Below, piece by piece: positions 25,360 through 29,201 of a DNA stretch of 64,000 nt. The stretch lies in NCBI RefSeq assembly GCF_001641695.1, contig NZ_LSEF01000090.1, forward strand, positions 109,228-173,227, given 5' to 3'. How positions within the stretch are numbered: position 1 is the first letter of the stretch; each line of letters starts with the position of its first letter. The stretch comes from Bradyrhizobium neotropicale (GTDB lineage: Bacteria > Pseudomonadota > Alphaproteobacteria > Rhizobiales > Xanthobacteraceae). A program made the translations under genes and the position numbers. The notes below the pieces were generated by a model. It was not told the DNA's origin. It made no database searches and saw only the letters and a list, made by a program, of their open reading frames with translations.

Positions 25360-25947
25360 ATGAGCTATCGGCTTCCTCCCCTGAACAGTCTGCGCGCGTT
25401 CGAAGCATCGGCGCGTCACCTGAGCTTCAAGCGGGCATCCGACGAGCTCTGCGTCACACCAGGAGCCGTCAGCCAGCAGGTCAAGAGCCTTGAAGCGAGC
25501 CTCGGCGTGCAGCTGTTTCGACGCCTCCCTCGCGGTCTGCTGCTCACCGCCAAGGGCGAAAGCTATCTGCCGCTGATCAGCAACGCCTTTCGAGCAATCT
25601 CCGACGCGACGGAGCACGTCGCGCCCACCCTCAAAGGAAGACTCCTGCGCGTGGGTATCTCACGCCCCCTGTCGGGGCGACGCCATCCCGCGATCGAGCG
25701 CTTGCGACGAGGCGGGGATTGGCCCCGTACCAAGCTCACCACCACAGATGACTTGAGCAAGCTGATCGACGGAAAGCTCGACGTCTTGCTGCGAACATCC
25801 CCGCAATCGCCGCCGGGCCTGCATGCCGACCGGATCGCATTGCCGGTCCCGTCCGGCGCCGCTCTGCCTGCCACGCTCGTGACGCTGCCGGGACTGGCCG
25901 GATGCCGTGAGGTCCGGGCACTCCTCAGGCTTCTTACGCGCGCCTGA
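25360..25947 (+). CDS. LysR family regulator, truncated in the effector domain
   Basis: 195 residues. The winged HTH is intact and GcvA-like: LPPLNSLRAFEASARHLSF, ASDELCVTPGAVSQQVKSLE and LGVQLFRRLPRGLLLT. The following linker and effector domain stop after about 90 residues, where family members have about 200, and the late residues (GLAGCREVRALLRLLTRA) do not resemble a normal effector fold. So the gene is probably C-terminally truncated or has an internal deletion. It may still bind DNA. Divergent from the AtcC-like gene. Confidence 0.75.
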   Translation: MSYRLPPLNSLRAFEASARHLSFKRASDELCVTPGAVSQQVKSLEASLGVQLFRRLPRGLLLTAKGESYLPLISNAFRAISDATEHVAPTLKGRLLRVGISRPLSGRRHPAIERLRRGGDWPRTKLTTTDDLSKLIDGKLDVLLRTSPQSPPGLHADRIALPVPSGAALPATLVTLPGLAGCREVRALLRLLTRA

Positions 25948-26056
25948 AGCCCAGAGCCGTCCGCCGCTCACGAAATCGTCATCGCGTCCGGGAATAAGGC
26001 CACCCCTCCCCCAATCATCTCCCCGAAGCCCAATTCCGGGCGAGAGGAGACGTGCG

Positions 26057-26995
26057 ATGAGCGGACACGATCACGGGGAAGACGGCGTCAGCCGCCGCAA
26101 GGTCCTTGAATGCATGACGTGGGCCGGTACCGGGGTGCTCTGGACCATCACCGGCGGCGTACCGCGCTCGCTCGGCATCATCGATTCCGCAGAGGCCGCG
26201 ACGGCGCCCGGCATGACCTTCCTGCAGATCAGCGACAGCCATGTCGGCTTCGACAAGCCGGCCAATCCCAACGCACTCGGCACGCTGGAGGAAGCCGTCA
26301 ACAAGATCAACGCAATGCAGGAAAAGCCCTCCTTCATGATTCACACCGGCGACATCACCCATCTGTCCAAGGCCGCCGAGTTCGACAATGCCGAGCGCAT
26401 CATCTCGCAGACCAAGCTGGATGTGCACTACGTGCCCGGCGAGCATGACTTCCTCGACGAGGAGGTGAAGTTCTATCGCGACCGTTATGGTCGCGGCACC
26501 AAGGGCCAGGGCTGGTACTCCTTCGACGCCGGCGGCGTGCACTTCATCGGCCTCGTCAACGTCGTCGACCTTAAGGCCGGCGGGCTCGGCAATCTCGGCG
26601 CCGAGCAGCTCGCCTGGCTCGCTGACGATCTCCGCGGCAAATCGAAATCGACGCCCGTCGTTCTGTTCGCGCACATCCCGCTCTGGACCGTCTATCCGGA
26701 ATGGGGCTGGGGTACCGAAGACGGCGGCCGCGCCCTGGAGCTCGTGAAAGGCTTCGGCTCCGTCACCGTGCTCAACGGCCACATCCACCAGGTGATGCAG
26801 AAGGTCGAGGGCAACGTCACCTTCCACACCGCGCGCTCGACCGCCTTCCCACAACCGGCGCCGGGGGCCGCCTCCTCGCCCGGACCGATGAAGGTCGAGG
26901 ACGCAAGGCTCCGCTCCATGCTCGGCGTTGCCAGCATCAACTTCAAGCAAGGCGACCAGCGCCTCGCGATCATCGACACCCCGCTGCAGGGCTGA
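26057..26995 (+). CDS. Tat-exported metallophosphoesterase
   Basis: 312 residues from ATG at 26057, after GAGAGGAGA. The N-terminus has a twin-arginine motif (SRRKVLECM) and a hydrophobic segment up to about residue 48. The calcineurin-like metal motifs appear in order: ISDSHVGF, HTGDITH, GEHD, FAHIPLW and NGHIHQ. It is closest to the class III phosphodiesterases and would act in the periplasm on an unknown phosphoester. First gene of a four-gene set with a cupredoxin, an ECF sigma factor and its anti-sigma factor. GGGAATAAGG at 25990-25999 resembles an ECF -35 element, but no -10 is certain. Confidence 0.88.
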   Translation: MSGHDHGEDGVSRRKVLECMTWAGTGVLWTITGGVPRSLGIIDSAEAATAPGMTFLQISDSHVGFDKPANPNALGTLEEAVNKINAMQEKPSFMIHTGDITHLSKAAEFDNAERIISQTKLDVHYVPGEHDFLDEEVKFYRDRYGRGTKGQGWYSFDAGGVHFIGLVNVVDLKAGGLGNLGAEQLAWLADDLRGKSKSTPVVLFAHIPLWTVYPEWGWGTEDGGRALELVKGFGSVTVLNGHIHQVMQKVEGNVTFHTARSTAFPQPAPGAASSPGPMKVEDARLRSMLGVASINFKQGDQRLAIIDTPLQG

Positions 26996-27008
26996 ACGGA
27001 AGCCGACA

Positions 27009-27332
27009 ATGAAGACGCTCAATCGCCGCGACTTCGGTGTCGCCGTGGCTGCGGCCATCCTGCTGCCTGCCACAAACGCCCGCGCCGACGACATGGAGGT
27101 GCATATCGACAACTTCGTCTTTCAGCCGGCCGAGCTCAAGATCAAGGTCGGGTCGACCGTGACCTGGACCAACCGGGACGATATCCCCCACACCGTGGTG
27201 TCGGCGGGCAAGTTCAGGTCCAAGACCCTGGACACCGACGACAAGTTCTCGTTCACCTTCACCAATGCGGGCGACTACAAATATTTTTGTTCGCTGCACC
27301 CGCACATGACGGGGATGATCAAGGTTGAGTAA
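27009..27332 (+). CDS. Tat-exported cupredoxin (pseudoazurin/amicyanin-like)
   Basis: 107 residues, starting 13 bases after the metallophosphoesterase stop. N-terminal signal with NRRDFGVAV and ARA cleavage site. The blue-copper ligands are readable: His in IPHTVVSAG, then Cys, His and Met in FCSLHPHMTG. The order and spacing Cys-x2-His-x-His-Met suggest a plastocyanin-like type 1 site. Probably a periplasmic electron carrier or copper binder. Confidence 0.88.
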   Translation: MKTLNRRDFGVAVAAAILLPATNARADDMEVHIDNFVFQPAELKIKVGSTVTWTNRDDIPHTVVSAGKFRSKTLDTDDKFSFTFTNAGDYKYFCSLHPHMTGMIKVE

Positions 27333-27459
27333 CATCTCGAACCAAGGCATCAACGTCTTGCCCGGCCGGTGGTCCCACGCCGGCCGGGCTCATACCTCTT
27401 CGATCGGGTCCAAGGACGAAACGAAGCAACACGCGAAGCAAGAGGCAAAGCGAGAGGCG

Positions 27460-28008
27460 ATGCCCGGCACCGACGATTTGCAGAAGGCACAGCGCTTCCG
27501 CGAGGCGGCGCTGCCCTATCTCGACGACGTCTACACGCTCGCGCGCTATCTGCTGCGCGACGCCTCCGACGCCGAGGATGCGGTGCAGGAGTGCTATCTG
27601 CGCGCGCTGAAGCATTTTGACAGCTATCGCGGGCCGGCGATGAAGCCATGGCTGTTCGCGATCCTGCGCAACGTCTGCAACGCCGAATATGCAAGGCGCG
27701 CGCATTCGCATGCCGCGATCGAGGATACACCCGGCGCCGCCGAGCAGACGCCGATGTGGCAAGAGACCGAGGCGAGCCCGGAGACGGAAGTGCTGCGCAG
27801 CCGCGACGCCGGCGCGATCCGCAAGCTGATCGACGCGCTCGCCGAACCGTTCAAGGAAACCTTCGTGCTGCGGGAGATCAACAACCTGTCCTATCGTGAA
27901 ATCGCCGAGGCCGTCGGCGCACCCGTCGGTACCGTGATGTCCCGCCTCGCGCGGGCCCGCGCCATGCTGCGCGCGGCCTGGATGGCGGAAGAGGAGCATT
28001 CGAGATGA
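27460..28008 (+). CDS. ECF-type RNA polymerase sigma factor
   Basis: 182 residues from ATG at 27460; an in-frame ATG at 27325 overlapping the cupredoxin stop would add 45 low-complexity residues (Lys, Gln and Glu rich) and is less likely. Region 2 contains DAEDAVQECYLRALKHFDSYRG; region 4 contains LSYREIAEAVGAPVGTVMSRLARAR, the usual DNA-binding helix. Its stop overlaps the next start, so it is translated with the anti-sigma factor. Confidence 0.92.
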   Translation: MPGTDDLQKAQRFREAALPYLDDVYTLARYLLRDASDAEDAVQECYLRALKHFDSYRGPAMKPWLFAILRNVCNAEYARRAHSHAAIEDTPGAAEQTPMWQETEASPETEVLRSRDAGAIRKLIDALAEPFKETFVLREINNLSYREIAEAVGAPVGTVMSRLARARAMLRAAWMAEEEHSR

Positions 28009-28772
28009 CCTGCGACGAAGCAAAGATCCTGCTTCACGCGCTGCTCGACAACGAGCTCGACGCCGGCCATGCGCGCGAGGTCGAGGCGCATATCGCGGGC
28101 TGCCCGGCCTGCGCCGCCGAACTTGCGGCACAGCGCGACATGAAGCGTGTGCTCTCCGACGCGAACCTGCGCTACACCGCCCCGGACCGCCTGCGCGCGC
28201 GCATCGAGGCGTCGTTGCCGCAGCCGCAGCGCCAGTCCCTGAGCCGCCGCTCCGTGCTGCGCGGCTTCGCGATGGGCTCGGCGGTCTCCGCGCTTGCCGC
28301 CAGTGGTGTCGTTGCCGTGGTGCTGCGCCAGGACGACCAGCAGCGCGTCCTCTCGGAGGTCGTCTCCGCGCATCTGCGCTCGCTCCAGGCCGGCCACCTC
28401 ACCGACGTGATCTCGACCGACCAGCACACGGTCAAGCCGTGGTTCAACGGCAAGCTCGATGTCGCCCCGCCCGTGATCGATCTCACCGCACAGGGCTTCA
28501 CGCTCGTCGGCGGCCGGCTCGACTATATCGATGCCCGCGCGATCGGCGCGGTGGTCTACCGGCGCCGCCAGCACGTCATCAACCTGTTCGTGTCGCAGAC
28601 CTCGAACACCGAGTATCGCGCGCCGAAGACCGAGACCATGCAGGGCTTCAACTGCCGCCGCTGGGGCAATCGCGGCCTGAACTTCTGGGCCGTCAGCGAC
28701 ATCGGCGCCGACGAGCTCGCCGAATTCGTCGACAAGTTCGAGACAGCAATGAAGGCGAATGTGGAGGGGTAG
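28005..28772 (+). CDS. Membrane anti-sigma factor with zinc-binding (ZAS) motif
   Basis: 255 residues, ATGA overlap with the sigma gene. The cytoplasmic N-terminus has the zinc anti-sigma signature ending EAHIAGCPACAAEL (HxxxCxxC). One membrane segment runs from about residue 84 to 105 and is introduced by SRRSVLRGFAMG, which reads like a twin-arginine motif. The periplasmic C-terminal domain of about 145 residues includes LTDVISTDQHTVKPWFNGKLD, so it is likely the sensor. It would hold the sigma factor until a periplasmic signal arrives. Confidence 0.9.
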   Translation: MTCDEAKILLHALLDNELDAGHAREVEAHIAGCPACAAELAAQRDMKRVLSDANLRYTAPDRLRARIEASLPQPQRQSLSRRSVLRGFAMGSAVSALAASGVVAVVLRQDDQQRVLSEVVSAHLRSLQAGHLTDVISTDQHTVKPWFNGKLDVAPPVIDLTAQGFTLVGGRLDYIDARAIGAVVYRRRQHVINLFVSQTSNTEYRAPKTETMQGFNCRRWGNRGLNFWAVSDIGADELAEFVDKFETAMKANVEG

Positions 28773-28796
28773 TTGTGCGGCGCCTGCGCAACGCCG

Positions 28797-29201
28797 TCAT
28801 TCGAGCGGAGGAAATCGTTCGAAGATCGGCAGTTCGTGGGCCCGCTCCATCCAGCGAATCCGCTCGGCGACCTGGATGTGCATCATGGCAGGAACGGCAT
28901 CGGGGTCATCATAGGTGCCGCTCTGGACGTCGATGATGCCGGGCATCAGGTTTTCGTTGATGTAGAAGAGTCCCGTGCCGCAATCGGCGCAGAAGTGGCG
29001 CCGTCCGTGCTCGGACGATTGATAGATCTTCGGTTGGCCGCACACCACTCTGACCGCTTCGAGCGGATACATCGCCCAACCGACCATCGGTGCGCCGGAA
29101 TGGCGACGGCAATCCGCGCAATGGCAGAGCGCGTGCACCATCATGTCGCCGTTCACCTCATAGCGGATCGCGCCGCAATGACAGCCGCCAGTAACAGGCA
29201 T
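28797..29201 (-). CDS. GFA family protein (glutathione-dependent formaldehyde-activating-like)
   Basis: 134 residues. CHCGAIRYEV, CHCADCRRHSGAP and FCADCGTGLFY supply the cysteines of the two zinc sites of the family. Members related to Gfa bind zinc, and some were proposed to help glutathione react with formaldehyde; that role is disputed. Convergent with the anti-sigma gene, 24 bases apart; likely a single gene. Confidence 0.9.
   Translation of the reverse strand: MPVTGGCHCGAIRYEVNGDMMVHALCHCADCRRHSGAPMVGWAMYPLEAVRVVCGQPKIYQSSEHGRRHFCADCGTGLFYINENLMPGIIDVQSGTYDDPDAVPAMMHIQVAERIRWMERAHELPIFERFPPLE

Follow-up and report, generated by a model that had tools for sequence, protein, structure and literature searches.

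The question raised by this locus is whether an extracytoplasmic function (ECF) sigma factor and its membrane anti-sigma factor control the two exported proteins encoded just before them, and what these two proteins might do together. The window analysed is a stretch of 64,000 nucleotides of Bradyrhizobium neotropicale (contig NZ_LSEF01000090.1, positions 109,228 to 173,227), in which four genes on one strand (+), within 26057-28772, encode a metallophosphoesterase (MPE) with a signal of the twin-arginine translocation (Tat) type, a small copper protein, the sigma factor and the anti-sigma factor. An earlier note, made from the sequence alone, had described a closely spaced set of Tat-type metallophosphoesterase, cupredoxin, ECF sigma and anti-sigma; its coordinates and gene calls are correct, with positions, strand and Pfam domains in full agreement. 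The comparisons presented here point, with moderate confidence, to an autoregulated envelope-response operon in which a sigma/anti-sigma switch would govern the MPE and the copper protein as an electron-partnered pair; for the regulatory half of this explanation taken separately, the same comparisons leave us highly confident.

The gene set, the operon, the promoter and the co-inheritance of the genes were established by comparison of related loci. A protein search of the named genomes confirmed 413 MPE relatives, and in the best 80 loci, where MPE identity is 82-95%, the order and strand of all four genes are kept throughout (80/80), with the caveat that at one locus (L080) the sigma match begins late and the junction between the copper and sigma genes is out of phase. 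Seventy-nine of these loci come from records titled Bradyrhizobium; the record of the other (L082, JAUEPE010000001.1) is titled Frankia sp. RB7, holds a full Bradyrhizobium operon with an MPE 94% identical, and is probably mislabelled. The promoter motif that the earlier note had suggested looking for upstream of the targets, GGGAATAA, was found at 25990-25997, 67 nt before the ATG of the MPE gene, and the box is common to all 81 upstream regions compared (the window and the 80 loci). Within 120 nt upstream of the MPE gene it reads GGAATAA in 63 and CGAATAA in 18, and GATC or AATC follows at the same spacing in 79/81, which gives the full pattern [GC]GAATAA-N15-[GA]ATC; the background rate of GGAATA is 1.2% of shuffled 150-nt regions.

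Beyond these close relatives, two distant sets were compared. The first comprises 26 distinct MPE loci (B. stagnalis being counted once), all outside the genus with the exception of L157, a distant copy in Bradyrhizobium. GGAATA lies upstream of the MPE gene in 23 of them, all Pseudomonadota or Gemmatimonadota, and in none of the three Actinomycetota loci; it also precedes the sigma gene in all 10 divergent loci and in the convergent L160, and in none of the six collinear loci, where one promoter suffices. Overall, the box occurs in 35/49 of the regions compared, against 0.034 per region in shuffles. The second set of 39 loci combines the best 29 of 84 places found in 150 genomes of family f87 (83 matching at 1e-30) with all 10 new ones from the window's class, in which 385 genomes were searched (14 matching at 1e-20); GGAATA stands within 250 nt upstream of the MPE gene in 37 of the 39, and in 35 the flank includes a sigma homologue. 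Since L209, from family f87, is identical to L118 (Caballeronia sp. M1242) and is counted once, both sets amount to 64 distinct distant loci. GGAATA before the MPE gene and before divergent sigma genes is the footprint expected of a self-activating sigma factor that controls the MPE-copper pair.

Co-inheritance agrees with this picture, as MPE and anti-sigma (E <=1e-35) are concordant in 33 of 35 genomes of the genus, with both present in 26 and neither in 7 (Fisher p 9e-6, without correction for kinship); one discordant genome, G033, has the MPE only and is cut at a contig end. The earlier proposal that the sigma factor controls both exported proteins is thereby strengthened, and extended to the sigma gene itself: the promoter footprint, its presence in both gene arrangements and the co-occurrence provide strong evidence, at the sequence level, for a single operon in which the sigma factor would drive its own gene and those of both exported proteins. 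That the sigma factor does not control its neighbours and that their adjacency is accidental is highly improbable, in view of the conservation of promoter and gene order across phyla, and no support for it was found. The regulon is probably local, since the specific motif SGAATAAN{14,16}RATCA occurs at only two places in the organism's own genome, one of which is the promoter of the operon. The second place falls inside coding frames (L111) and gives no evidence of a larger regulon, and another pattern, GGGAATAAN{12,20}GTT, was likewise discarded, with 5 matches against 7 for a control pattern.

The resemblance of this promoter to known ones bears on the signal to which the operon may respond. 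Among the mapped Sinorhizobium meliloti promoters cited here, GGGAATAA precedes SMc01418 (RpoE1) and GCGAATAA precedes SMc01022 (RpoE1/RpoE3), with GTGTC and CGTC, respectively, as -10 elements (PMC6180224). Compared with these ECF26 promoters, the -35 element of the operon is identical to the base, in both its variants, whereas the -10 element is altered in Bradyrhizobium, where GATC or AATC replaces the expected GT; distant relatives mostly have GGT or AGT at this distance. Because the -10 element lacks GT, the promoter is called ECF26-like rather than ECF26, and the system is not filed as a member of the group. The sole ECF26 reference compared, an RpoE6-like protein of pSymA, is 30.6% identical to the sigma factor and falls outside the module sigma factors with weak support (81/80); between the EcfR6-like protein and the anti-sigma factor of the operon, blastp found no match at E 1e-3.

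By promoter type, the closest systems that have been studied are RpoE1/RpoE4 of S. meliloti and SigE of Starkeya. The cited accounts describe for them a response to sulfite or to other compounds of sulfur (PMC3511301, PMC6527743), which makes sulfur oxyanions at least as good a guess for the signal as copper. In the S. meliloti RpoE4-EcfR4 / sorT-sorU-azu2 system, as presented in the cited passages, an ECF sigma factor paired with a membrane anti-sigma factor likewise acts through promoters of the GGAAT type, by which it governs itself as well as an exported enzyme and a blue copper protein (PMC3511301, PMC6180224), and ECF26 control of an enzyme together with a blue copper protein is already known from this case; the target there, however, is a sulfite dehydrogenase with a cytochrome instead of an MPE, and the -10 element is CGTC instead of GATC/AATC. 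In Starkeya novella, the genes of SigE, the anti-sigma factor and the periplasmic redox enzyme SorAB are likewise adjacent and a GGAAT -35 element precedes sorA, but no MPE or copper protein is named in the passages cited, and the sigE promoter there is without the motif (PMC6527743).

The first of the two exported proteins, the MPE, begins with MSGHDHGEDGVSRRK, a Tat-like twin-arginine (RR) segment that recurs in all 33 rows of an MPE alignment and in all 39 loci of the second set, and the protein is predicted to be Tat-exported. In the same 33 rows (from three phyla, with B. stagnalis in twice and six rows of close Bradyrhizobium kin) and 39 loci, GEHD replaces the GNHD motif, which places Glu129 (codon 26441-26443) at a metal-binding Asn position; in a HMMER alignment, this residue stands opposite the Asn of structures 2zo9 and Rv0805. 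The remaining metal ligands (D60, H62, D99, H206, H242 and H244) are kept in 33/33 rows. In Pfam and NCBIfam profile searches, by which the four proteins were assigned to families, the MPE passes the PF00149 cut-off of 21.5 bits, lacks the family catalytic motif GNH[DE], and scores 42 bits against NCBIfam cut-offs of 225 and 400; its predicted structure was set aside as unusable (mean pLDDT 43.9). The protein thus has the fold family and the other metal motifs of Class III cyclic nucleotide phosphodiesterases and their phosphohydrolase relatives (PF00149), from which it differs in GEHD for GNHD, the Tat-type signal and the copper partner.

With the regulation unchanged, the MPE might still be an ordinary periplasmic phosphodiesterase or phosphatase acting on nucleotides or on lipid or sugar phosphates, with the copper protein serving another target and only the stress being shared. 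The conservation of every other family ligand in the 33 rows would suit this possibility, as would the identity of its closest solved relatives by sequence (the phosphohydrolases 2zo9 and Rv0805) and the fact that hydrolysis may survive a Glu-for-Asn change, and we give it appreciable weight while judging it less than probable. It leaves unexplained why GEHD is fixed here when, among the 14 PF00149 matches in the organism's own genome, 11 of which could be read by pattern, nine have GNHD/E, one has GVHA and the only GEHD is that of this MPE; nor does it account for the copper protein, of two site types, beside the MPE in 62 of 64 distant loci, or for the cytochrome in two remote relatives. At the opposite extreme, the GEHD proteins would not be phosphoesterases but exported redox metalloenzymes built on the metallophosphoesterase fold, in which the extra carboxylate ligand would create a redox-active dinuclear site exchanging electrons with a type-1 copper, CuA-type or cytochrome c partner; the pair would then be made in at least three phyla, two of which would use it in a periplasmic stress response controlled by an ECF26-like sigma factor. 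We regard this stronger proposal as improbable.

The nature of the carrier beside the MPE is informative in this respect. The copper protein of the window, whose N-terminus (MKTLNRRDF) has an RR signal that is not shared by all relatives, keeps the type-1 ligands H61, C94, H97 and M100 in 31/31 rows; amicyanin chains, from E 6e-14, are among its nearest PDB sequences and it shares the CxxHxxM loop of amicyanin, whereas its score against the amicyanin equivalog TIGR02657 is 61.7 bits, below the cut-off of 110.2. The carriers of the first distant set are type-1 proteins by sequence match at 21 of the 26 loci and CuA-like at three (L153 and L154 by Pfam, L123 by motif), with none found at the other two; those of the second set are type-1 by sequence match at 36 loci and CuA-like, by motif alone, at three. 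A copper protein of either type hence adjoins the MPE in 62 of the 64 distinct distant loci, many of which are close kin and non-independent, including all 39 of the second set. Two still more remote GEHD MPEs (L124:3836-5456 and L122:3661-6735; 29-31% identical), one on S. meliloti pSymA and one on a Methylocystis plasmid, each stand in operon-like order ahead of a gene encoding a cytochrome c domain of the SoxA/TsdA type; the S. meliloti protein is encoded near SoxYZ and that of Methylocystis after a MauG-type gene. That the enzyme stays the same while its carriers vary suggests electron transfer, short of proof, and a redox partnership of MPE and copper protein is, on this sequence pattern, the moderately probable reading.

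SoxB belongs to the same fold family as the MPE and acts on a sulfur substrate. By analogy, the operon might handle a sulfur oxyanion in the manner of RpoE4-sorT-azu2, with the MPE acting on a sulfur compound as SoxB does, in a sulfite or thiosulfate response; this is suggested by the position of the S. meliloti GEHD protein near SoxYZ and the SoxA/TsdA-type cytochrome, by a shared design in which an exported enzyme is combined with a blue copper protein, and by a -35 element that is the same as in the RpoE1/RpoE4 promoters, which the cited accounts tie, with Starkeya SigE, to sulfite (PMC3511301, PMC6527743, PMC6180224). We consider it rather unlikely, as the module is without a sulfite enzyme (no gene for a sulfite-oxidising enzyme is found in the four-gene operon, the rest of the genome not having been searched for sorT) and the remote S. 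meliloti MPE is only 29% identical.

The distribution of the module is sporadic yet widespread: the MPE is found at 1e-30 in 18 of 398 genomes of the phylum, the window's own included, and the four-gene module occurs also in Burkholderiaceae and in Gemmatimonadota (Gemmatirosa), while the three Actinomycetota records have adjacent copper protein and MPE genes in reversed order. On a plasmid of Mycobacteroides abscessus (NC_021278.1; L121:3167-5906), genes for an ECF sigma factor, with no blast match to that of the window at 1e-3, and for a Rieske protein precede the copper protein and a GEHD MPE; the Rieske [2Fe-2S] domain protein has an RR segment, its gene and that of the sigma factor share 4 nt, and it is a putative redox-sensing anti-sigma factor. 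Three loci (L153, L154 and L155) represent a second clade of the module, with MPEs 36-38% identical and divergent sigma and anti-sigma genes, in which the copper protein is of CuA type in L153 and L154 and a TPR gene is present in L155.

The sensor of the operon would be the anti-sigma factor, whose gene overlaps that of the sigma factor by 4 nt. The zinc motif and sizeable periplasmic domain attributed to it by the earlier note were both recovered, as the zf-HC2 domain (residues 3-37) exceeds the PF13490 cut-off of 22.2 bits and contains Hx3Cx2C, and, in a topology judged by eye, about 145 residues follow an RR-type hydrophobic segment (~81-108), giving a periplasmic domain of ~109-255. H29, C33 and C36 are invariant in 40 anti-sigma sequences, and Hx3Cx2C is found in 24 of 32 wider rows; among the eight without it, the open reading frames of L118, L148 and L163 may miss the true N-terminus. 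The zinc motif as a general sensor was rejected on account of these eight rows, the periplasmic domain being the conserved part, with H123 in 31/32 and H141 and H190 in 32/32 rows; the most conserved stretch, DQHTVKPWF, includes H141.

In the structural model (mean pLDDT 66.9), the N-terminal 50 residues reach block values of 82-93 and this part aligns to RsiW (Z 7.5), and the closest structures to the periplasmic part are TM1622 and the RseB/MucB C-terminal domain (Z 7.8-8.8 over 95-107 residues, rmsd 2.9-4.2). RseB/MucB stand at Foldseek ranks 1-5, and the best rows, TM1622 included, have E values of 0.006-0.06, none <0.001; Z values <8 may reflect a common arrangement only, and no convincing match of the anti-sigma factor to a solved structure was obtained by sequence. 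We tentatively propose, from the model, a likeness of the periplasmic part to this RseB/MucB domain (Z ~8), as known from the envelope stress systems RseA-RseB and MucA-MucB, with the differences that the domain is fused to the anti-sigma factor here and that the similarity is borderline and without a sequence match. The RR and the following hydrophobic segment resemble a Tat signal in sequence, and FecR is a Tat-dependent anti-sigma factor. The RR is present before the hydrophobic segment at all 107 anti-sigma loci of >=65% identity (103 by pattern and four by eye; 98 distinct sequences) and also in L143, from the same family; Tat insertion was rejected as a rule of the family, the RR being found in Bradyrhizobium and L143 and lacking in the majority of distant members.

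The periplasmic histidines H123, H141 and H190 could bind metal, and the adjoining copper protein is nearly constant; from these features, one can argue for a copper-response operon with the periplasmic domain as the copper sensor, the main idea of the earlier note, and the copper protein as a buffer. This option now appears quite doubtful. The four genes include no copper exporter, oxidase or chaperone, a cytochrome substitutes for the copper protein in two remote relatives and a Rieske protein stands beside the sigma factor in M. abscessus, systems with the same promoter type respond to sulfur compounds, and H141 lies in a poorly modelled region.

In the explanation that we favour, the release mechanism, the signal, the electron transfer and the substrate are what we infer. 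At rest, the membrane anti-sigma factor, with its cytoplasmic zinc-finger, single hydrophobic segment and RseB/MucB-like periplasmic domain, would hold the ECF sigma factor; it would be freed by a signal in the periplasm, for which a small, reactive oxidant or a sulfur oxyanion is the likeliest candidate, rather than copper itself, and the freed sigma factor would use the promoter at 25990 to transcribe the region from 26.0 to 28.8 kb of the window, with all four genes. The response would amplify itself and also produce its own brake, the anti-sigma factor, and the MPE, with its Glu-modified metal site, and the blue copper protein would act as a pair, with the latter as electron partner.

Several observations weigh against this explanation. 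On the regulatory side, the -10 element departs from ECF26, one genome of the genus (G020) has sigma and anti-sigma factors without MPE, and among five sigma loci without a nearby MPE, GGAATA precedes the sigma gene only in L115. Where the MPE-copper pair has no sigma gene in the flank, an anti-sigma relative is found elsewhere in the genomes of L149 and L151, whereas that of L152 (G311) has the promoter and no anti-sigma factor at E 1e-5. For the sensor, pLDDT falls to <50 at 132-153, precisely the most conserved stretch. For the pair, the TPR gene takes the place of a carrier beside the MPE at L155, and no carrier was found at L119; the cytochrome pairing comes from two low-identity records examined among 339 plasmid records matched (190 of them Escherichia), and the argument for electron transfer is one of guilt by association only.

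Table 1. Coordinates of the genes and nucleotide elements of the operon in the window.
Feature	Position	Strand	Description
MPE (Tat-type metallophosphoesterase)	26057-26995	+	PF00149 Metallophos 55 bits, E 1.9e-14; GEHD metal motif
CUP (small exported type-1 copper protein, amicyanin-like)	27009-27332	+	PF00127/PF13473; Copper-bind E 9e-13
SIG (ECF sigma factor)	27325-28008, domain part from ATG 27460	+	Sigma70_r2, Sigma70_r4_2
ANT (membrane anti-sigma factor)	28005-28772	+	PF13490 zf-HC2 41.8 bits, E 1.1e-10
Promoter, ECF26-like	25990-26016	+	-35 GGGAATAA 25990-25997; spacer 15; -10 AATC 26013-26016
Conserved element TCACGAAAWCGTCAT	25968-25982	+	directly upstream of promoter
Leader hairpin GCCC-AATTCC-GGGC	26028-26041	+	precedes ribosome-binding site
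12-bp hairpin GCCCGGCCGGTG/CGCCGGCCGGGC	27360-27389	+	copper-sigma junction, inside 5' end of sigma frame

Other elements of the transcript are also conserved (Table 1). The element upstream of the promoter is present in 65/81 loci, its offset upstream of the promoter match being 22-23 nt in 58 of those, and is perhaps the site of a second regulator. In the 81 leaders, the outer pair of the leader hairpin is G-C in 66, A-T in 5, G-T in 4 and mispaired in 5, and was not found in one. The sigma factor, with sigma-70 regions 2 (51.6 bits) and 4 (49.2 bits) and an adjacent anti-sigma gene, has the marks of the ECF group, and its frame is open from TTG 27325, with an alternative TTG at 27358. Between the copper gene and ATG 27460 lie 127 nt, a length that is 1 mod 3 in 105 of 106 loci (up to nine of which were entered twice), and no stop interrupts the sigma frame across this gap in any of the 106, so that the gap is probably translated as a 5' extension of the sigma gene. 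Rates at codon positions 1, 2 and 3 are 0.24, 0.27 and 0.29 in this linker and 0.11, 0.11 and 0.25 in the sigma gene; given the little protein-level constraint in the extension, no single start codon is assigned, despite the kept frame. The junction hairpin has a stem of at least 8 bp in 101/106 loci, with paired base changes, and third codon positions change at a rate of 0.08 within it versus 0.25 in the sigma gene (529 equal-length pairs), which indicates that the nucleotides themselves are constrained. No Rfam family matches 25900-28900. The likely role of the hairpin is to fix how much of the exported proteins is made relative to the regulators. Ahead of the operon, a LysR-type regulator frame (25360-25947) of only 195 amino acids with a partial substrate domain appears truncated or frameshifted.

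As the earlier note had surmised, no characterised system of exactly this gene set emerged from the full-text literature searched, which lies mostly outside subscription journals; neither the MPE-copper target pair nor the breadth of the module was found there, nor was the GEHD mark, no search having been aimed at GEHD or at RseB-like anti-sigma factors. A P. phymatum metallophosphoesterase (Bphy_6550), which the cited part of one study lists with sulfur transporters (PMC5748707), was not used, as its orthology is not established. In summary, four annotated genes become a defined and testable module in Pseudomonadota and Gemmatimonadota, the enzyme-copper core of which extends to Actinomycetota, with a promoter predicted to the base and a GEHD motif by which these enzymes can be told apart from ordinary phosphoesterases. 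The module would also offer an anti-sigma factor with a sensor that, in the model, looks like RseB/MucB and, if the copper protein is truly the electron partner of the enzyme, a mostly hydrolytic fold would gain redox chemistry.

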